Part shown: positions 21,778 to 36,816 of the stretch, piece by piece
How the letters are laid out: every line of letters starts with the position of its first letter
Position numbering within the stretch: position 1 is the first letter of the stretch
Made by a program: the position numbers and the translations under genes
Source: Massilia varians
Lineage (GTDB): Bacteria; Pseudomonadota; Gammaproteobacteria; Burkholderiales; Burkholderiaceae_D
DNA length: 64,000 bases
NCBI RefSeq assembly: GCF_027923905.1
Contig: NZ_AP026966.1
Span: 2,667,001-2,731,000 of the forward strand
Reading direction: 5' to 3'
Notes under the pieces: model-generated
Database searches by the model: none
What the model was told of the DNA's origin: nothing
What the model saw: the letters and a program-made list of their open reading frames with translations, nothing else

Positions 21778-23556
21778 TTACGCAGCGATTTTCTCGTGAC
21801 CGGCCAGCCATGCCAGCAAGGCGTCCGACGGCAGCGGCCGGCTGTAGAAGTAGCCCTGGCCCTTGGCGCAGCACTGGGCGCGCACGATGTCGGCCTGGGA
21901 CTGGGTCTCGATGCCTTCGGCGACCGTCTTCATGCCCAGGCTCTGGGCCACCTTGACGGTCGCTTCGATCAGCACCCGGTGGTGGTGGCTGGTGTCGGCC
22001 TGGCTCACGAAGGAGCGGTCGATCTTGACCGTGTCCACCGGCAGCAGGTGCAGGCTGGACAGCGACGAGTAGCCGGTGCCGAAGTCGTCCAGGGCCAGCT
22101 GGATGCCGAGCGCCTTCAGTTCGTGCAGGCGCTGCTGGATGCCCTGGTCCTGCGCCGCCAGGCTTTCGGTGACCTCGAGCTGGAGCTGCTCCGGCGCGAT
22201 GCCGGTGACCTGCAGCACGCGGCGCACGCTGTCGATCCAGCCCGGCTGCCCGAGCTGGGCGCGCGACAGGTTCACCGCGATCCGGCGCGGCGCCCCTTCG
22301 CCCAGGCGCGCTTGCCAGTCCATGAAGTCGCGGCAGGAGCGTTCGAGCACGAAGTCGCCGACCGCGCCGATCAGGCCGCACTCTTCGGCGACAGCAATGA
22401 ATTCGACCGGCGGCACGATGCCGCGCTGCGGATGGCGCCAGCGCACCAGCGCCTCGACGCCGGCCGCGTAATCGGTGCCGCCGTCGGGCAGCAGGCCGAC
22501 CACCGGCTGGTAGACGACGAACAGCTGTTCCTCGGCCAGGGCCTGGCGCAGCTCGGCCTCGATGCCGGCGCGGCGCTCGGCGCGCTCGCGCATCGCCGCT
22601 TCGAACACCAGGTGGCGCGCGCCGCCGGCGCGCTTGGCCTCGACCATCGCGATGCCGGCGTCGCGCAGGACCTCGTCGGCGTCGCGCGCGCCGCAGCCGA
22701 CCGATTCGGCGCCCCAGGCCAGGCCCAGGCTGGTGCCGCACACGACCTCATGCCCCTGCACCCGGTAGGGCAGGGCCAGCGCATCGAGGATGCGCCCGGC
22801 CACCCGCCCGGCATCCTCGCGCGAACGCATCCCGTCGAGCACCACCACGAATTCGTCGCCGCCCACGCGCGCGGCCAGCTGGCCGGTACCGCTGGCGGTG
22901 TCGATGCGGTCGCTCGGCGGGCGCAGCGCGCCGCGGATGCGGTCGGCGATCTGCACCAGCAGTTCGTCGCCGGCCGCCTGGCCGAGGGTGTCGTTGATCT
23001 GGCGGAAGCGGTCGCAGTTCATGAACAGCACCGCGAAGTTCAGCTCGGCATGCGCCCCGGCCGCCAGCGGCCGCGTCACCAGGTGCTGCAGCTGCTCGCG
23101 CACCGCTTCGCGGTTCGGCATGCGGGTGAGCGCATCGGTGCGGGCGGCATTGCGCAGGCGGCGCAGCAGGGTCTCCTGCTCGCGCTGCACTTCCAGGGTG
23201 GCGTCGGTGACGACCGCCATCAGGCGCTCGCTGTCGAGCTTCATCAGGCTGATCGCCAGCACCTGCGGGCTGCCCGGCGCGGTGAGCTCGGGCGGCAGGG
23301 TGGCGCGCAGGCCTTCGCAGATGACGCCCGAAGCCTCGCTGAAACTCGCGGCCAGCTGCGGCAGTTGCGGCGCGATCGGCGCCAGCACCGCATACAGGTT
23401 GTCCAGGCCGCTGTTCGGGGCGACCGGCATCAGGAGGTTCGACGCCATCGGGTTGAGCATCTCGACGGTGCCGTCGGGCGTTATCTGGGCCAGCCCGATC
23501 GGCGCGCGGTACAGGAACTGCACCAGGGCCTCGTAGGCATCGCTCGGGTCATGCAT
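21778..23556 (-). CDS. PAS-GGDEF-EAL c-di-GMP protein
   Basis: A 592-residue c-di-GMP enzyme. Residues ~10-125 are a PAS-like sensor related to that of the upstream cyclase. The GGDEF domain (~135-320) has an intact GGDEF motif at 232-236 but no RxxD inhibitory site in front of it. The EAL domain (~335-590) has EAL at 368-370, NLSRAQL, LEVTES, DDFGTGYSSL, KIDRSF and VAEGIET, so the phosphodiesterase site looks complete. The ATG at 23556 has an AAGGAG site and overlaps the cyclase stop by 8 nt. It is the last gene of the pyp operon. Net synthesis or breakdown cannot be told from sequence. Confidence 0.9.
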   Translation of the reverse strand: MHDPSDAYEALVQFLYRAPIGLAQITPDGTVEMLNPMASNLLMPVAPNSGLDNLYAVLAPIAPQLPQLAASFSEASGVICEGLRATLPPELTAPGSPQVLAISLMKLDSERLMAVVTDATLEVQREQETLLRRLRNAARTDALTRMPNREAVREQLQHLVTRPLAAGAHAELNFAVLFMNCDRFRQINDTLGQAAGDELLVQIADRIRGALRPPSDRIDTASGTGQLAARVGGDEFVVVLDGMRSREDAGRVAGRILDALALPYRVQGHEVVCGTSLGLAWGAESVGCGARDADEVLRDAGIAMVEAKRAGGARHLVFEAAMRERAERRAGIEAELRQALAEEQLFVVYQPVVGLLPDGGTDYAAGVEALVRWRHPQRGIVPPVEFIAVAEECGLIGAVGDFVLERSCRDFMDWQARLGEGAPRRIAVNLSRAQLGQPGWIDSVRRVLQVTGIAPEQLQLEVTESLAAQDQGIQQRLHELKALGIQLALDDFGTGYSSLSSLHLLPVDTVKIDRSFVSQADTSHHHRVLIEATVKVAQSLGMKTVAEGIETQSQADIVRAQCCAKGQGYFYSRPLPSDALLAWLAGHEKIAA

Positions 23557-24904
23557 GCTTGCGATCTCCTTCGGGTTGATGGGCGGGGCTGGACCCCAGT
23601 TCGGGGCGCCAGCGTTCGACGCGGTTGCGCCCGGCGCGCTTGGCCGCGTACAGGGCCTGGTCGGCGCGCTGGAGCAGCAGGTCGATGCCCCCGGCGCCAT
23701 CGTCCAGGCTGGCGACCCCGAGGCTGACAGTGTAGTGGATCCGCGCGCCCTCGAAGAGCACGGCCTGCGAGGCCACGCTGGAACGCAGGCGTTCGGCCAC
23801 CACCGCCGCGCGCGCCAGGTCGGTGGACGGCAGCAGCACCGCGAACTCCTCGCCGCCGATGCGCGCCGCGACGTCGACTTCGCGGAAGGTCTCGCCCAGG
23901 ATCGCGGCCAGGTGCTGGAGCACGGCGTCGCCGCCCGGATGGCCGTGGCGGTCGTTGATGGCCTTGAAATGGTCGGCGTCGATCGCGATCACGGCGGTCG
24001 GGCGCGGCACCGTCATGCTGCGGCTCAGTTCCTGCTCGGCGGCCTCGAAGAAGGCGCGCCGGTTGGCCAGCCCGGTGAGGTAGTCGCCGAAGGCCTCGCG
24101 GCGGCGCCGTTCGCTGGCTTCGCGCTTGTCGGTGATGTCGCGCACGATCAGGCAATAGGCCGGACCCTCCGCGTCGAAACCGCAGGGCGGATCGCGTTCG
24201 GGCAGGGGCGCGATCAGGGCGCTGCCCCAGAAGCTGCTGCCGTCGGCCCGCACGCGCTTGCCTTCGTCCAGGCTCCAGCCGTCGCGCTCGGCGTCGCGCA
24301 GGCGGTCGAGCAGGCGTTCCGGGGTCATCGCATCGAGCGGATAGAAGATCGAATACGGTCGGCCCACCGCATCCTGGCCGAAGCCGGTGACGCGGCCGAT
24401 GCTGGGGTTCCAGTCGGTGATGCGGCCTTGCGCGTCGAGGCCGACCAGGGCGTAGTCGGTGATGCCGGTGAGGATGGCGTTGAGCCAGGCGTCGTTCTGG
24501 CGCAGCTGGCGCTCGCGCCTGACTTGCAGGGTGACGTCGTCGATCACGGCCATGATGCGCTGCGCGTCGAGCTTGAGCAGGGTGATGGCGAGGATCTGCG
24601 GAATCTTCTTGCCGGCGCCGCCGGCGTTCAGGTGCACGTGCAGGCCGTCGCAGATCTTGCCCGACGGCCGGGCGTAGTCGGCGCACAGGTGGCGCAGCTC
24701 GGGCGCCACGGCTTCCAGCGCGGTAAACAGATTGTCCAGGCCGCCGTCGCGCGACAGCGGCATCAGGAGCTGGGCCGAGATCGGGTTCATCATGACGATG
24801 GCGCCATCGATGTCGGCCTGTACCAGGCCCACCGGGGCCAGGTACAGGAACTGGATCAGGGCTTCGTGTTCAGCCCGCAGTGCGTCGATCTCGTCCATGC
24901 CCAT
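23549..24904 (-). CDS. PAS-PAS-GGDEF diguanylate cyclase
   Basis: A 451-residue enzyme making c-di-GMP from two GTP. The first PAS-like sensor (~14-130) is paralogous to that of the downstream GGDEF-EAL protein. A canonical PAS/PAC follows (~140-265, ITDYALVGLDAQGRITDWN). The GGDEF domain has GGEEF at 350-354 and the RxxD product-inhibition site (Arg341, Asp344) at the canonical five-residue spacing, so it should be active and feedback-controlled. There is no transmembrane segment. It starts 16 nt after the pyp stop and overlaps the next gene, so it is co-transcribed with the photoreceptor gene. Confidence 0.92.
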   Translation of the reverse strand: MGMDEIDALRAEHEALIQFLYLAPVGLVQADIDGAIVMMNPISAQLLMPLSRDGGLDNLFTALEAVAPELRHLCADYARPSGKICDGLHVHLNAGGAGKKIPQILAITLLKLDAQRIMAVIDDVTLQVRRERQLRQNDAWLNAILTGITDYALVGLDAQGRITDWNPSIGRVTGFGQDAVGRPYSIFYPLDAMTPERLLDRLRDAERDGWSLDEGKRVRADGSSFWGSALIAPLPERDPPCGFDAEGPAYCLIVRDITDKREASERRRREAFGDYLTGLANRRAFFEAAEQELSRSMTVPRPTAVIAIDADHFKAINDRHGHPGGDAVLQHLAAILGETFREVDVAARIGGEEFAVLLPSTDLARAAVVAERLRSSVASQAVLFEGARIHYTVSLGVASLDDGAGGIDLLLQRADQALYAAKRAGRNRVERWRPELGSSPAHQPEGDRKHA

Positions 24905-24920: not shown

Positions 24921-25310
24921 TCAGCGCTGGCGCTGGACCAGCACGTAGCGGTTGCCGCTCGCCGGGCTGGCCAGCAGGCGCAGGGCGACCTTGACCGGGC
25001 GCATGCGCAGGGTCAGGACGTAGTCGATGGTATCGTCCAGCGCGCTGCCGTCGTCCAGCGCGTCTTCGAAGCGCTGGGCCACCATGAAGTTGTTCAGGCA
25101 GGGCGCGACGTTGGTGAACAGCGGCTGGCCGATCACGCGCTGCGGCGACAGGCCGGCCGCCTGCGACTCGAAGGCGTTGTAGCGCTGGACCTTGCTGTCG
25201 GCATCGAAGCCGATCACGCCGAAGTCGAGCTGGTCGAGCTGCTCCGGCGAACAGTTGTCAAGCCGGGAAGCCAGGTCGGCGGTCGAAAACGACAGGGTAG
25301 GGGCGTTCAT
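24921..25310 (-). CDS. pyp: Photoactive yellow protein (PYP)
   Basis: A 129-residue single PAS-fold protein that aligns without large gaps to Halorhodospira halophila PYP from LDFG to the C-terminus. The chromophore Cys (Cys69 in H. halophila) is at residue 71 in NVAPC. Tyr42 and Glu46, which hydrogen-bond the p-coumaroyl phenolate, correspond to Tyr44 and Glu48 (RYNAFE), with identical 27-residue Tyr-Cys spacing. The MRPVKV block matches MTPTKV around Met100. Thr50 and Arg52 are replaced by Ala and Leu. PYPs bind p-coumarate as a thioester and enter a blue-light photocycle. I chose ATG 25310 because it gives the family length; ATG 25355 would add 15 residues. It heads an operon with two c-di-GMP genes and is divergent from the chromophore-activating ligase. 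Confidence 0.9.
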   Translation of the reverse strand: MNAPTLSFSTADLASRLDNCSPEQLDQLDFGVIGFDADSKVQRYNAFESQAAGLSPQRVIGQPLFTNVAPCLNNFMVAQRFEDALDDGSALDDTIDYVLTLRMRPVKVALRLLASPASGNRYVLVQRQR

Positions 25311-25498
25311 GGCGGTAAGATGCGTTCGTTGATTTGAGGAAATTGATGTTGACATGCCGCTAGCCCTCTGTCAATTGTGCGCGGCCCGTTGTTGACACTT
25401 TGCGTTGTCGAATTACACGCTTGCGCCGATTGACGGCGCGGTTGACAGGTTTTGCGGCGGGCGGCACCATCGTCGGCCCGCACTGTTTCCTTGCCATC
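25311..25498. promoter_or_regulatory. Divergent pyp / coumarate-ligase control region
   Basis: A 188-bp region between the two divergent starts. Perfect TTGACA hexamers occur on + at 25350, 25392 and 25442, and on - at 25374-25369. The minus-strand one has CAACAT 17 nt further on and would place the pyp transcript start just upstream of ATG 25310. The + copy at 25442 has CACCAT at 17-nt spacing before the ligase start. The -10 matches are weak, so regulated promoters are likely; no known operator was recognised. Confidence 0.4.
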
Positions 25499-26743
25499 AT
25501 GACTGTCCATACCGTTCCCGATCCCCACTGGTGGAGCCACCGGCCGACCCTGCTGCGGGTCCTGTCCGACCTGCTGGCCGGGGAGCTGGCGCTGATGCGT
25601 CCCGGCATTGCACGGCGCCCGCCGCCCTGGCCGCCCGAGCTCGACCTGGTGGCCGACCTCGGGGCCGATTCGCTCGAATTGCTGGGCCTGGCCACCGCCA
25701 TGGAGCAGGTGCTGGGGATCGGCTGCATCGGCGAAGAGCGGGTGCTGGCCAATCCGCGGCTCGGCGCCTGGCTCGAGGCGGCGGCTTCCGGGCTGGAGCA
25801 GGGCGGCGGAACGATCCGTTTCCGCACGTCGGGCAGCTCGGGCGCCCCCAAGGACTGCTCCCATCTGCTCGCCGACCTGTGGCAGGAGACCGGCGCGCTG
25901 GCCGCCCTGTTTGCGGACACGCGCCGCATCGTCAGCCTGGTTCCCTCGCACCATATCTACGGCTTCCTGTTCACGGTCCTGCTGCCGCGCGCACGCGGCC
26001 TCGATCCGGCCGCGCTGCTCGACTTGCGCGGCGCCTCGCCCGGCGCGGTGGCGCGGCAGTTGGCGCCCGGCGACCTGGTGGTCGGCTTTCCCGATTTCTG
26101 GCGCGCGTTCGCGCCGGTGGCCGGAACCCTGCCGCCGCGGGTGTTTGGCGTGAGCTCGAGCGCCCCCTGCCCGGACGAGGTGGCGCGCGTGGTCACGGAC
26201 GCGGGCCTTGCCAGGCTGGTGCAGGTCTACGGCAGTTCGGAGACGGCCGGCGTCGGCTGGCGCGACAGCCCGGACGAGGATTACCGCCTGTTCCCCTACT
26301 GGAAGGCGGGCAGCGATGCGGGGCTGATCGCGCGGCGCTGCGCGGACGGGGGCGTGCGCAACTTCGCCTTGCAGGACCGGCTGGCCTGGAGCGCGCCGGG
26401 ACGCTTTCGCCCGCTGGGGCGGATCGACCATGCGGTGCAGGTCGGCGGCGTCAACGTCTTTCCCGGCTACGTGGCCGAGGTGCTGCGCATGCACCCGCTT
26501 GTCGAAGACGCGGTGGTGCGCGCCATGCGCCCGGATGAGGGGCAGCGCCTGAAGGCTTACGTGGTGCCGCGCGCGGGCGTGCCGCCGGAGGGCAACCCGG
26601 AAGCGGCGGCGCTGCGCGCCGAACTGGTCGCATGGATGGCCGAGCGCCTGTCGACGCCGGAGCGGCCCGCCGCCTACTCGTTCGGCGCCGCGCTGCCGCG
26701 CCAGGCCAGCGGCAAGCTGTCGGACTGGATTATCGACGCCTGA
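25499..26743 (+). CDS. pcl: 4-coumarate-CoA ligase, PYP chromophore-activation type
   Basis: A 414-residue AMP-forming ligase, clearly shorter than ordinary acyl-CoA synthetases and close to the PYP-associated 4-coumarate ligase family (TIGR02372). ATP-binding motif TSGSSGAPK is at ~110-118, the adenylate motif VYGSSET in the middle, GRIDHAVQVGGVNVFPGY next, and the catalytic Lys of the last motif in RQASGKLSDWI. Residues ~48-98 look like an acyl-carrier domain with a DSL motif (Ser58). Its expected role is to make p-coumaroyl-CoA, which then loads onto the Cys of PYP. It is divergent from pyp. The specific substrate is inferred from family and neighbourhood. Confidence 0.85.
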   Translation: MTVHTVPDPHWWSHRPTLLRVLSDLLAGELALMRPGIARRPPPWPPELDLVADLGADSLELLGLATAMEQVLGIGCIGEERVLANPRLGAWLEAAASGLEQGGGTIRFRTSGSSGAPKDCSHLLADLWQETGALAALFADTRRIVSLVPSHHIYGFLFTVLLPRARGLDPAALLDLRGASPGAVARQLAPGDLVVGFPDFWRAFAPVAGTLPPRVFGVSSSAPCPDEVARVVTDAGLARLVQVYGSSETAGVGWRDSPDEDYRLFPYWKAGSDAGLIARRCADGGVRNFALQDRLAWSAPGRFRPLGRIDHAVQVGGVNVFPGYVAEVLRMHPLVEDAVVRAMRPDEGQRLKAYVVPRAGVPPEGNPEAAALRAELVAWMAERLSTPERPAAYSFGAALPRQASGKLSDWIIDA

Positions 26744-31642: not shown

Positions 31643-31667
31643 GGTTCTTCACGGATTTCCGGGAAAC
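31643..31667. repeat. IS left terminal inverted repeat
   Basis: A 25-bp terminal repeat beginning GGTTCTTCACGGAT; it pairs with 32931-32955. Confidence 0.88.
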
Positions 31668-32851
31668 GCGGCTTTGATCTTCAGAAAGAAGAAGTCGCTG
31701 TCCCGGTAGCCGTAAGCCATTCGCTTCATCACTTTGATACGGTTGTTGATGCCTTCGAGCTGGCCGGTATGCATCGGCCAGCGCAGCCGTGCTGCGATGC
31801 CTCGCCAGTAAGGCTTGAGTTTCGCAGCGAACTTTCTTAACGGCTCGATGCCGCTATCGCGCGCCATCTTGAGCCAGCTGCGCCAGGCGAGGAGCCACTG
31901 CCACCCACCAGATGTCTGCCATAGTTCCTTGAGTGCCGTCTTCATCACGTACACCGTCATCAAGGCCTGGTTGGCAGCGAGCAGCTCGTCCAGATTGGCC
32001 TGCTGGGCCGGCGGGACGTTTTCCCGGTTGCGCAGCAACAGCCAACGAGAACGCTTGACGACTTTGCGCTGGGGCCGGTCGTCTCGCAAGCGGTTCGCCT
32101 CGTCGACGCGTACCCGGTCGATCACCTCTCGGCCGTACTTGGCGATAACGTGGAACAGGTCGTAGACCACACGCGCCTTCGGACATTGCTGACGAACTTC
32201 CAGGTCGAACGCAGTGTTCATGTCCATCGCGACGGCCTCGATGTTGGCGCAGCGTTCAGGGCCGAGCCATTCAAAGAATGGGCGGATGGCTTCGCGGCTG
32301 CGGCCTTCGCCAACCCACAAGACCTGCCTGCTGTCTGCATCGAGCACGACAGTGGCGTAACGATGCCCCTTGAACAGTGCAAACTCGTCCATGACGAGCC
32401 GAGTTGGTTGTGCTGCAGGCAAAGCGGCCAGTTCACGTTCCAGCTTGGCACGCTCGATATTGCGCACCGTTTCCCAGTGCAGCTGCACCAGTTTGCATAC
32501 GTGGGCAACGGGCAGCTTCTCGCACCACAAGCCTACAAACTCGGCCAGGGAACGAGTCACCCGGGCATGGCGATCCAACCAGGCCACGCGCTCCGTACGA
32601 GTACCGCATTGACCGCAGCGCAGGCGCCTCAAAGGTACACGCAGCCACACAGGTAAGCCGAACATCGGCATGTCGCGGACGATGCGCACGCCTGCTTCAT
32701 GTACCTGATGGCAGTGATGGTGACAGCCGCCACATACCATCGGCGCTGCCGGGTCCCGGCGTAGATCGATCCATACCGCGCCAGCCCGGCGCTCCAGTTT
32801 CGATGCAATGAACCCTTCCCAGAACGGGAGGGCGAGATTATGATTCGTCAT
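31649..32851 (-). CDS. ISL3 family transposase
   Basis: A 400-residue DDE transposase. The N-terminal zinc-binding region has CGGCHHHCH and a second pair CGQCGT. A helix-turn-helix-like segment follows (HVCKLVQLHWETVRNIE), and the catalytic core has VMDEFALFKGH, MDMNTAF, and YDLFHVIAKY as in ISL3 members. The C-terminus has LEGINNRIKVMKRMAYGYRD with the catalytic Glu. I start at ATG 32851; a GTG at 32887 is possible. The frame is intact, so the enzyme is probably functional. Confidence 0.92.
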   Translation of the reverse strand: MTNHNLALPFWEGFIASKLERRAGAVWIDLRRDPAAPMVCGGCHHHCHQVHEAGVRIVRDMPMFGLPVWLRVPLRRLRCGQCGTRTERVAWLDRHARVTRSLAEFVGLWCEKLPVAHVCKLVQLHWETVRNIERAKLERELAALPAAQPTRLVMDEFALFKGHRYATVVLDADSRQVLWVGEGRSREAIRPFFEWLGPERCANIEAVAMDMNTAFDLEVRQQCPKARVVYDLFHVIAKYGREVIDRVRVDEANRLRDDRPQRKVVKRSRWLLLRNRENVPPAQQANLDELLAANQALMTVYVMKTALKELWQTSGGWQWLLAWRSWLKMARDSGIEPLRKFAAKLKPYWRGIAARLRWPMHTGQLEGINNRIKVMKRMAYGYRDSDFFFLKIKAAFPGNP

Positions 32852-32930
32852 GAAAGCGGTGGGAAAAGCAGGTTTTGTTGATCGCACAACAAGTCTAGCT
32901 CTTCTTCACCGCTTTCTTGTTTTTAGGATT

Positions 32931-34959: not shown

Positions 34960-36816
34960 GTGCGCCCAGCATGGGCGCACTCCTGCGGGTGCAAGTCCCG
35001 TCGCGAGCTGACCACAGTGAGCGAAGTGAAGCGCAACTGCATGAGGGTAACCGAGTGTGGGAAGGAAGCGTGGAGCGTAAATCATGAGCCGAGGAACACG
35101 AATCGCATAGAAGGCGTTGCCGATCAGGGCGAGCGGGCCATGAATCGCGAAGCTCTTGTGGTCAAGGAGAGGTGGCGTAGATGCGGCGGTTGTGTGATGA
35201 AGGAGTGCGGCCCTTACCTGGGGACGCCCCGCCTTGTGCCTGAAAGGGCGACGAAAAAAAAATCGGAGCGGGGTCTCAGCAGAGGTCATAGTAGTTGGAG
35301 GTAGCGCCGGGAAGGCTCGACTCCGCCGACGAAGGACCGAACGAGTAGGAGTGAATCCGATATGTCGATGCAGAAGGCACAGCGTCAGATGCCCGCTAAC
35401 GCGGGGCGGGAAGCCGTAGGGCAAGGTGAAGCCATGCTCGATGCTTTCAGCGACGAAGCGTTCTGCCCGCGGCATGCAACCGGAGGCACAGGGTCGGCGC
35501 TGCTGCAAACGGCGCTGACGACAGAGAACTTGCGGCGGGCGTTCAAGCGTGTACGGGCCAATAAGGGAGCTGCCGGCGTGGATGGACTGGACATTGACCA
35601 GACCTCGCGTCTACTGGCGACCGAGTGGCTGCACATACGTGAACAACTGCTTGCAGGGACGTATCGGCCCAGCCCGGTACGTCGGGTGACGATTCCGAAG
35701 CCCGATGGTGGCGAGCGCGAGCTCGGCATTCCGACGGTGACGGATCGCCTGATCCAGCAAGCACTGCTACAGGTGCTGCAACCGATCCTTGACCCCACTT
35801 TCAGTGAGCACAGCTATGGTTTTCGGCCGGGCAGGCGTGCGCAGGATGCGGTGTTAGCCGCTCAGGCATACGTCCAGTCCGGGTTGAGAATCGTGGTGGA
35901 CGTGGACTTGTCGAAATTCTTCGACCGGGTCAACCATGACATCCTGATCGATCGCCTGAAGAAACGCATCGACGACGCCCGAGTGATCCGGCTGGTCCGT
36001 GCCTATCTGAACAGCGGCATCATGGACCATGGCGTGGTGCAGGAGCGAAGCGAAGGAACGCCGCAAGGCGGGCCATTGAGTCCGCTGCTTGCCAACGTGA
36101 TGCTCGATGAAGTGGACAAGGAACTGGAACGGCGCGGCCATCGCTTTGCACGCTACGCCGACGATGCGAATGTGTATGTGCGCAGCAGGCGGGCGGGTGA
36201 GCGGGTGATGGGGCTGCTGCGGCGCTGCTATGCCAAGTTGCACCTCGTGGTCAACGAGGGCAAGAGCGCGGTAGCTAGCGTCTTCGGCCGCAAGTTCCTC
36301 GGTTACAGCCTGTGGGTGGCGCGTGGAGGCGAAATCAAACGCAAGGTGGCTGACAAGCCGCTGCAAGCGTTCAAGCAACGTATTCGGGAGCTGACCTGCC
36401 GTTCCGGCGGACGCAGCATGCCGGATGTGGTGCAGGGACTTCGTTCCTATATGCTGGGTTGGAAAGGGTACTTCCAGTTGGCGCAAACCCCAAAGGTCTG
36501 GCGCGGACTCGATGAATGGTTGCGGCACAGGCTGCGAGCTATCCAGCTCAAGCACTGGAAACGCGGAAGCACCATGTATCGGGAACTGCTCAAGCTTGGG
36601 GCTTGGCCGTCGGCAGCAAGGCACGTGGCGGCGAACAGCCGCCGCTGGTGGCACAACAGCGATAGGCTACTCAAAACAGTGATGACTATCGGCTATTTCG
36701 ACCGACTGGGCGTACCCCGCCTGTCTTGACCTCAACTACTCGAACCGCCCGGTGCGGACCCGCATGCCGGGTGGTGTGGCAGGGGAGCGGCCCTCAGGGC
36801 CGTCCCCTATGCCGAT
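34960..36816 (+). mobile_element. Group II intron with maturase
   Basis: A retroelement of ~1.86 kb. The 5' end GTGCG matches the group II boundary consensus. The ~400 nt before the ORF (34960-35361) is non-coding and highly structured, with short stems such as GTGCGCCC/GGGCGCAC: ribozyme domains I-III. After the ORF, 36737-36775 reads as domain V (GAACCGCCCGGTGCGG, GCATGCCGGGTGG). 36777-36814 forms a domain VI stem (GGCAGGGGAGCGGCCC / GGGCCGTCCCC), and the element ends GAT, fitting the AY 3' boundary. It lies directly behind a terminator hairpin, the target habit of class C introns, though I do not assign the class from the protein. The 3' end is accurate to a few bases. Confidence 0.85.
35362..36729 (+). 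CDS. ltrA: Group II intron reverse transcriptase/maturase
   Basis: A 455-residue intron-encoded protein. The RT domain (~50-330) has KGAAGVDGLDI, SYGFRPGRRAQDAV, VDVDLSKFFDRVNHD, TPQGGPLSPLLANV and the catalytic YADD in RYADDANVYV. The maturase (X) domain (~345-455) has YMLGWKGYFQLAQ and LRAIQLKHWKRG. No HNH endonuclease is present, so mobility would rely on single-stranded or replication-fork targets. The ATG at 35362 has an AGGAG site. The frame is intact. Confidence 0.95.
   Translation: MSMQKAQRQMPANAGREAVGQGEAMLDAFSDEAFCPRHATGGTGSALLQTALTTENLRRAFKRVRANKGAAGVDGLDIDQTSRLLATEWLHIREQLLAGTYRPSPVRRVTIPKPDGGERELGIPTVTDRLIQQALLQVLQPILDPTFSEHSYGFRPGRRAQDAVLAAQAYVQSGLRIVVDVDLSKFFDRVNHDILIDRLKKRIDDARVIRLVRAYLNSGIMDHGVVQERSEGTPQGGPLSPLLANVMLDEVDKELERRGHRFARYADDANVYVRSRRAGERVMGLLRRCYAKLHLVVNEGKSAVASVFGRKFLGYSLWVARGGEIKRKVADKPLQAFKQRIRELTCRSGGRSMPDVVQGLRSYMLGWKGYFQLAQTPKVWRGLDEWLRHRLRAIQLKHWKRGSTMYRELLKLGAWPSAARHVAANSRRWWHNSDRLLKTVMTIGYFDRLGVPRLS

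Follow-up and report, generated by a model that had tools for sequence, protein, structure and literature searches.

The photoactive yellow protein (PYP) encoded in the 64,000-nucleotide stretch of Massilia varians DNA analysed here (the window) would, in the reading that we favour at a probability of roughly 70%, be a clade C blue-light sensor at the head of a three-gene operon linking light to c-di-GMP and set c-di-GMP through both enzymes encoded behind it. This reading is built on homology, the chromophore-pocket triad, gene order, GGDEF and EAL motifs, the co-occurrence of the PYP with a PAS-like N-terminal domain (N-PAS) and a carrier-like domain in the adjoining p-coumarate:CoA ligase (pCL), all of which are visible in the sequence. 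The features concerned are as follows.

21778 to 23556, minus strand: predicted GGDEF-EAL protein (N-PAS-GGDEF-EAL), from its GGDEF, EALVR and DDFGTG motifs and Pfam matches.
23152 to 23556, minus strand: N-PAS domain 2, within the GGDEF-EAL protein, 48% identical to domain 1.
23549 to 24904, minus strand: predicted diguanylate cyclase of 451 residues (N-PAS-PAS-GGDEF), from its GGEEF and RxxD motifs and Pfam matches.
24497 to 24904, minus strand: N-PAS domain 1 (cyclase residues 1 to 136), PAS-like, without a Pfam family.
24921 to 25310, minus strand: PYP (clade C) of 129 residues, from its translation, matches to PYPs in the PDB and TIGR02373 (81.2 bits).
25098 to 25100, minus strand: codon of the predicted chromophore residue Cys71, within the PYP gene.
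25311 to 25498, no strand assigned: divergent intergenic region of 188 bp between PYP and pCL, with TTGACA counted over 46 loci and the window.
25499 to 26743, plus strand: predicted PYP-type pCL of 414 residues, matched by TIGR02372, PF00501 and PF13193.
25529 to 25795, plus strand: acyl-carrier-protein-like domain of the pCL (about residues 11 to 99), from an acyl carrier protein (ACP) profile match and the DSL motif.
25670 to 25672, plus strand: codon of pCL Ser58 (Asp57-Ser58-Leu59), within LGADSLEL.

Judged by its matches to PYPs in the PDB, by TIGR02373 being its sole NCBIfam match and by the retained triad and spacing, the open reading frame at 24921 to 25310 encodes a real PYP homologue, with a similarity far beyond chance. 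The preliminary description had given these coordinates correctly and without a strand, which is the minus strand, and had mentioned neither the chromophore ligase nor the c-di-GMP operon; the plus-strand reading of the same interval is merely the opposite strand of the PYP gene. It had also placed the gene in a betaproteobacterial chromosome, in agreement with the single 5.58-Mb contig and with Massilia alkalitolerans as the nearest named relative (93%). A PDB search with the 129-residue protein gave 1mzu (PPR) as the top match (E = 7e-17), together with chains named photoactive yellow protein (E = 5e-16 and weaker), which we take to be those of Halorhodospira; residues 6 to 127 aligned onto residues 4 to 124 of these chains, so that the end-to-end alignment previously claimed was recovered over nearly the full length of the single domain. 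TAL-effector repeat chains were also present in the match list (E = 2e-8 and weaker) and were taken as a repeat artefact, since none of them had a single stretch that passed. Scanning of named genomes yielded 120 stretches with the pattern, 46 of which encode a PYP relative (the 46 named loci). Tyr44, Glu48 and Cys71 align with Halorhodospira Tyr42, Glu46 and Cys69 with a Tyr-Cys spacing of 27 in both proteins, as described earlier, and all three residues were invariant in the 47 sequences compared (46 named loci and the window), as were Leu54 and Met103, with Ala52 present in 46 of 47. The HMM check proposed in the preliminary description gave a mixed outcome, with a TIGR02373 match (E = 6e-23) but a score of 81.2 bits against a curated cut-off of 143.05 bits, so that the refutation stated there formally applies; the model is a poor test here, as it recovers only about 20% of PYP homologues according to the consulted part of PMC9664959, and on both grounds we filed the protein under the PYP family and not as a TIGR02373 equivalog. 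Pfam returned PAS_4 at 25.9 bits, just over its cut-off of 23.1.

Like Halorhodospira halophila PYP, the window protein is a single domain of about 125 residues with the pocket triad and the 27-residue Tyr-Cys spacing; it differs in having Ala52 for Thr50 and Leu54 for Arg52, one additional residue in the loop ahead of the last third, and replacements of Phe92, Phe96 and Trp119 (Ile95, Leu99 and Tyr122, respectively), while the Met100 equivalent is retained as Met103. We know of no spectrum or photocycle for this protein. Ala50 and Leu52 are the PYP family consensus in the part of PMC12826048 consulted. Loss of Phe92, Phe96 and Trp119, retention of Met100 and GGDEF/EAL neighbours were used as the marks of clade C, and the window PYP carried all of them; as read from this residue signature and its gene neighbours, it is a member of that already recognised clade. 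In the available part of PMC9664959, where clade C (group 6) was described in 2022 as mostly proteobacterial, especially from Burkholderiales, and often located beside GGDEF genes, its proteins likewise keep the equivalents of Tyr42, Glu46, Cys69 and Met100 and lose Phe92, Phe96 and Trp119, have GGDEF/EAL neighbours and include relatives labelled 'phosphonate transporter', and we found no difference from this description in the PYP itself. The same source, as far as consulted, states that by 2022 no member of clade C had been characterised.

PYPs had been portrayed in the preliminary description as known mainly from halophilic and purple bacteria with scattered examples elsewhere, a picture that is out of date because the surveys, in the parts consulted, list 789 (PMC9664959) and 984 (PMC12826048) homologues and because 53 of 62 genomes of the genus gave a PYP match. 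The PYP gene was retained at 57-93% identity across the 46 named loci, which belong mostly to Massilia/Telluria and also to Duganella, Noviherbaspirillum, Herbaspirillum, Paucibacter and Methyloversatilis. At the level of the order, 12 of 399 genomes matched PYP at E values up to 1e-6, 11 of them with a clade C-like protein, and the match in one of these 11 (G603) contains an in-frame stop. The twelfth, genome G566, carried four weak PYP-like copies (about 30% identity) within 3.5 kb (G566:C1:133893-137373) and had no N-PAS match. In eight genomes of the genus (G001, G007, G016, G024, G032, G033, G067 and G081) there was a second PYP (29-35% identity) with a pCL of its own alongside, and the pCLs of the seven second-type loci fetched out of these eight contained the DSL motif. 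In plasmid records, the pairing of PYP and cyclase is annotated in Caballeronia, Indioceanicola, Methylobacterium, Sphingomonas, Rhizobium and Polymorphobacter, and four plasmid PYP genes, that of the Comamonadaceae plasmid CP099603 among them, are annotated as 'phosphonate transporter' in public records. Elsewhere in the window, a group II intron lies at 35041 to 36729 on the plus strand, with an Rfam RF02001 match at 35041 to 35211 (100.7 bits) followed by a reverse transcriptase/maturase reading frame at 35362 to 36729 (plus strand), and an ISL3-family transposase gene (31649 to 32887, minus strand) lies where the G+C content is lower than around PYP.

The three minus-strand genes are closely packed. 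The cyclase gene starts 16 bp after the PYP stop codon, and its own stop overlaps by 8 bp the likely start of the GGDEF-EAL gene, an ATG at 23556 that follows a GGAG box (the mechanically called reading frame starts at 23700). A match to the cyclase gene was located directly behind PYP in all 46 named loci and spanned the GGDEF domain in 37 of them; it ended before GGDEF in L068, L069 and L099, covered only N-PAS in L074, L078, L081 and L089, where a single N-PAS-GGDEF-EAL protein remains, was cut by the contig end in L092 and was partial at 30% in L098. The GGDEF-EAL protein came next in order in 42 of the 46 loci. For comparison, the consulted part of PMC12826048 lists GGDEF genes in 29 pyp operons and pCL in 42. 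The biofilm system of Idiomarina loihiensis (van der Horst 2009, as cited in PMC9664959), with which we compared the locus by its description only, likewise has a PYP beside a GGDEF gene and a proposed light control of biofilm; its PYP belongs to clade A according to the available part of PMC9664959, whereas the window has two c-di-GMP enzymes with a common PAS-like N-terminus.

This N-terminus, N-PAS, is about 135 residues long and opens both c-di-GMP enzymes. No Pfam family covers it, a single weak match to an unrelated family being obtained among the ten members scanned; its best PDB matches were weak (WalK, E = 0.03), and profile comparison with PYP was also weak (probability 37%, E = 4e-4). 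Cys85 of N-PAS was present in 79 of the 87 copies compared and in all 10 sequences of a wider alignment. The domain was present in every one of the 46 named PYP loci, with two copies in 39 and one copy in 7. Among the 62 genus genomes, 53 had both PYP and N-PAS, 8 had neither and none had PYP alone; in G006, N-PAS was found without PYP on a contig of 3,683 bp that ends inside the domain, and the PYP gene may therefore have been cut off. Among the 399 genomes of the order, the 11 with a clade C-like PYP were exactly those in which N-PAS was detected, the 388 others (G566 included) giving no match. In plasmid records, 8 of the 9 clade C-like PYPs (45-67% identity) had N-PAS as a neighbour, with none alongside a PYP of only 30% identity (L105). 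On the Comamonadaceae plasmid CP099603 (L110), whose PYP is 67% identical, no N-PAS match was obtained on the plasmid record, an empty search that constitutes weak evidence. The PYP gene of L110 is followed, on the opposite strand, by a gene of 4.1 kb for a large PAS protein, a BLUF photoreceptor gene and a cyclase gene. From this distribution we infer that N-PAS is the receiver of the PYP signal; the near-strict co-occurrence is not proof of binding, because inheritance or loss of the whole operon as a unit would produce the same pattern. A link between N-PAS and clade C PYPs was not found in the published literature searched, which included the available parts of PMC9664959 and PMC12826048.

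On the other side of the PYP gene, the divergent intergenic region carries a TTGACA hexamer 64 bp before PYP, with an equivalent 62-90 bp before PYP in 35 of the 46 named loci; of the 29 loci that have a ligase match, 27 also carry the hexamer in the opposite orientation. A scan of this region for consensus promoters returned none that passed. We considered a conserved regulator site (TTGACA/TGTCAA) and rejected it, as the pattern would instead fit two divergent -35-like hexamers and the PYP-facing TTGACA is missing in the Duganella loci and others.

A pCL match lay beside PYP in those 29 loci, divergent and near full length in 27, in the other orientation in L090 and as a 62-residue fragment in L081. 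The remaining 17 of the 46 loci had no pCL alongside PYP, with some of the contigs ending early, and Cys71, Tyr44 and Glu48 were kept in all 17. No PYP-type pCL was found in 10 of the 53 PYP-bearing genus genomes, in 6 of which the first-look candidates were only partly scored; a longer 4CL-like gene (104-120 bits) was present in 3 of these 10 (G008, G011 and G035), and the other 7 had weaker matches. Since Cys71 stays invariant where no pCL lies alongside, another ligase probably serves PYP in these loci. Regarding the supply of p-coumarate, two aromatic amino acid lyases were detected when the genome was searched, one of which is hutH (683.5 bits, over the cut-off). The second is located about 0.9 Mb from PYP, in a cluster that we regard as aryl-polyene-type because it contains ketosynthases, an ApeP-like dehydratase and a ligase-ApeI fusion, and this lyase could supply p-coumarate; none lay beside PYP among the window neighbours scanned.

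The pCL gene adjoins the PYP gene divergently, and its product matched the PYP-type ligase model TIGR02372 over residues 53 to 407 (314.3 bits, E = 9e-94), just under the cut-off of 334.7, which was exceeded in only one of the 62 genus genomes, by a match beside a second-type PYP. It contains TSGSSGAPK at residues 110 to 118 and SGK at 404 to 406, which we take to be the adenylation P-loop and the site of the C-terminal catalytic lysine, respectively. Pfam AMP-binding aligned to the protein only from profile position 170 of 384, beginning at residue 110, and in contrast to the usual adenylation domain, a carrier-like domain would stand in place of the missing first part. This N-terminus resembles acyl carrier proteins of PF00550 in its LGADSLE motif and in the match of its family profile to ACP structures; it differs in that the window pCL remained below the Pfam cut-off of 20.8 (16.1 bits for the whole pCL and 18.9-19.3 bits for the fragment) and in that the first helix lies outside the match. 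PF00550 matched 8 of 15 family N-terminal fragments at E values up to 1, and a profile built from 15 diverse pCL N-termini retrieved acyl carrier proteins from the PDB with E values down to 1.1e-5, the match spanning positions 33 to 90 of the 93 in the profile. This search returned 89 sequences at E values up to 0.1, and among the 60 listed all but PigH had names of the ACP, ACPM, NDUAB1 or NDUFAB1 type, the NDUAB1/NDUFAB1-type complex I subunit presumably being the mitochondrial ACP. Asp57-Ser58-Leu59 was invariant in 240 of 240 relatives (window included) while most neighbouring positions varied; the set takes the best 120 ligases from a search with 1563 proteins and the best 120 from another with 2605, and close relatives therefore dominate it. 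The broader pattern (L/F)(G/A)xDS(L/I)(E/D) was present in all 41 ligases of a second set, in which the window is counted twice (also as L040) and which comprises 32 loci from the G-numbered genomes (the genus and one further genus of its family) plus six named genera, namely Caballeronia, Indioceanicola, Niveispirillum, Methylobacterium, Sphingomonas and Rhizobium; the Caballeronia M1242 ligase has DSI, and that of Indioceanicola sits in a pyp-pcl-ammonia-lyase cluster. The longer 4CL-like ligases of the same genomes matched TIGR02372 only from position 96-99 and have no carrier-like part, while the model itself matched 15 of 15 carrier-like fragments, an indirect sign that the founding pCLs of Halorhodospira and Rhodobacter may share the domain. 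Given this ACP-like N-terminus with its invariant Asp-Ser-Leu, pCL may load the chromophore through a carrier arm of its own. Chromophore transfer by such an arm was not found in the open-access literature consulted, subscription papers and survey supplements lying outside the scope of the search.

In the favoured reading, the PYP gene and then those for the N-PAS-PAS-GGDEF and N-PAS-GGDEF-EAL proteins would be co-transcribed in this order, and the divergently encoded pCL would activate p-coumarate for attachment as a thioester to Cys71, giving the holo-protein. Blue light would isomerise the chromophore and change the shape of PYP, which would then contact the PAS-like N-terminal domain common to both enzymes, and this contact would shift the balance between c-di-GMP synthesis and breakdown in one direction or the other, so that attachment and biofilm would in turn be affected. 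Several observations weigh against this reading: both equivalog cut-offs were missed (PYP, 81.2 of 143.05 bits; pCL, 314.3 of 334.7 bits), a PYP-type pCL was lacking in the 10 of 53 genus genomes and 17 of 46 loci mentioned above, CP099603 had no N-PAS match on the plasmid, and the gene group is altered in L068, L069 and L099 (cyclase match without GGDEF) and in L074, L078, L081 and L089 (one N-PAS enzyme). A more elaborate version, in which pCL adenylates p-coumarate, binds it to a phosphopantetheine on its N-terminal carrier domain and delivers it from there to apo-PYP without free p-coumaroyl-CoA, and in which PYP and N-PAS form a light-switched PAS-PAS complex, is offered tentatively as a scheme that we consider rather unlikely in full.

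Four alternatives were weighed against these proposals. The view of the protein as an ordinary PAS domain whose cysteine is a coincidence, which the PAS_4 match would allow, deserves hardly any credence in view of the near full-length PYP matches, the sole NCBIfam match, the triad with its spacing and the adjoining PYP-type ligase; the earlier judgement that it is unlike a generic PAS domain is thus borne out, as a PYP homologue that keeps its chromophore-pocket triad. A genuine PYP could also have lost p-coumarate binding and act as a light-independent PAS sensor or a scaffold for the two enzymes, which would accord with the ten genus genomes lacking a detected PYP-type pCL and with the clade-wide loss of Phe92, Phe96 and Trp119; the invariance of Cys71, Tyr44 and Glu48 in all 47 sequences, the 17 loci with no adjoining pCL included, and the pCL next to the gene in the window make this improbable. 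Only slightly better placed, and still unlikely, is a PYP that binds p-coumarate and sends its signal to another target, such as chemotaxis or gene expression, with the c-di-GMP genes as neighbours by history only. Links from other PYPs to chemoreceptors and to histidine kinases are described (PMC12826048 and PMC9664959, as far as consulted), and at one locus a clade C-like PYP has a large PAS protein and a BLUF gene as neighbours but no N-PAS; against this, a cyclase match follows PYP at every named locus, and all PYP-bearing genomes of the genus, like all those of the order sample with a clade C-like PYP, also contain N-PAS.

The fourth alternative concerns only the carrier arm and leaves light sensing untouched. 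The carrier-like domain may bear no phosphopantetheine and be a relic that serves structure or docking, with pCL an ordinary CoA ligase; to this we assign somewhat less than an even chance. Sub-threshold PP-binding scores of the window pCL point in this direction, as do the statements in the consulted part of PMC12826048 that the activity of pCL was demonstrated by experiment and that pCL joins p-coumarate to CoA; the Asp-Ser-Leu that is constant amid varying neighbours in the 240 best-scoring relatives, and the retrieval of acyl carrier proteins from the PDB by the family profile, argue against a relic.

PYP is a model protein for photochemistry. Its signal transduction chain is described as an important gap in the consulted part of a 2025 survey (PMC12826048), and N-PAS, through its near-strict co-occurrence, is a concrete candidate receiver for the PYP signal. 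The carrier-like domain bears on the pigment loading of PYPs linked to a ligase of this kind and could explain how such a ligase works without the first part of the usual adenylation domain. Collectively, the value of the locus lies in two testable leads, a signalling partner and a route of pigment loading, within a well-conserved gene group.
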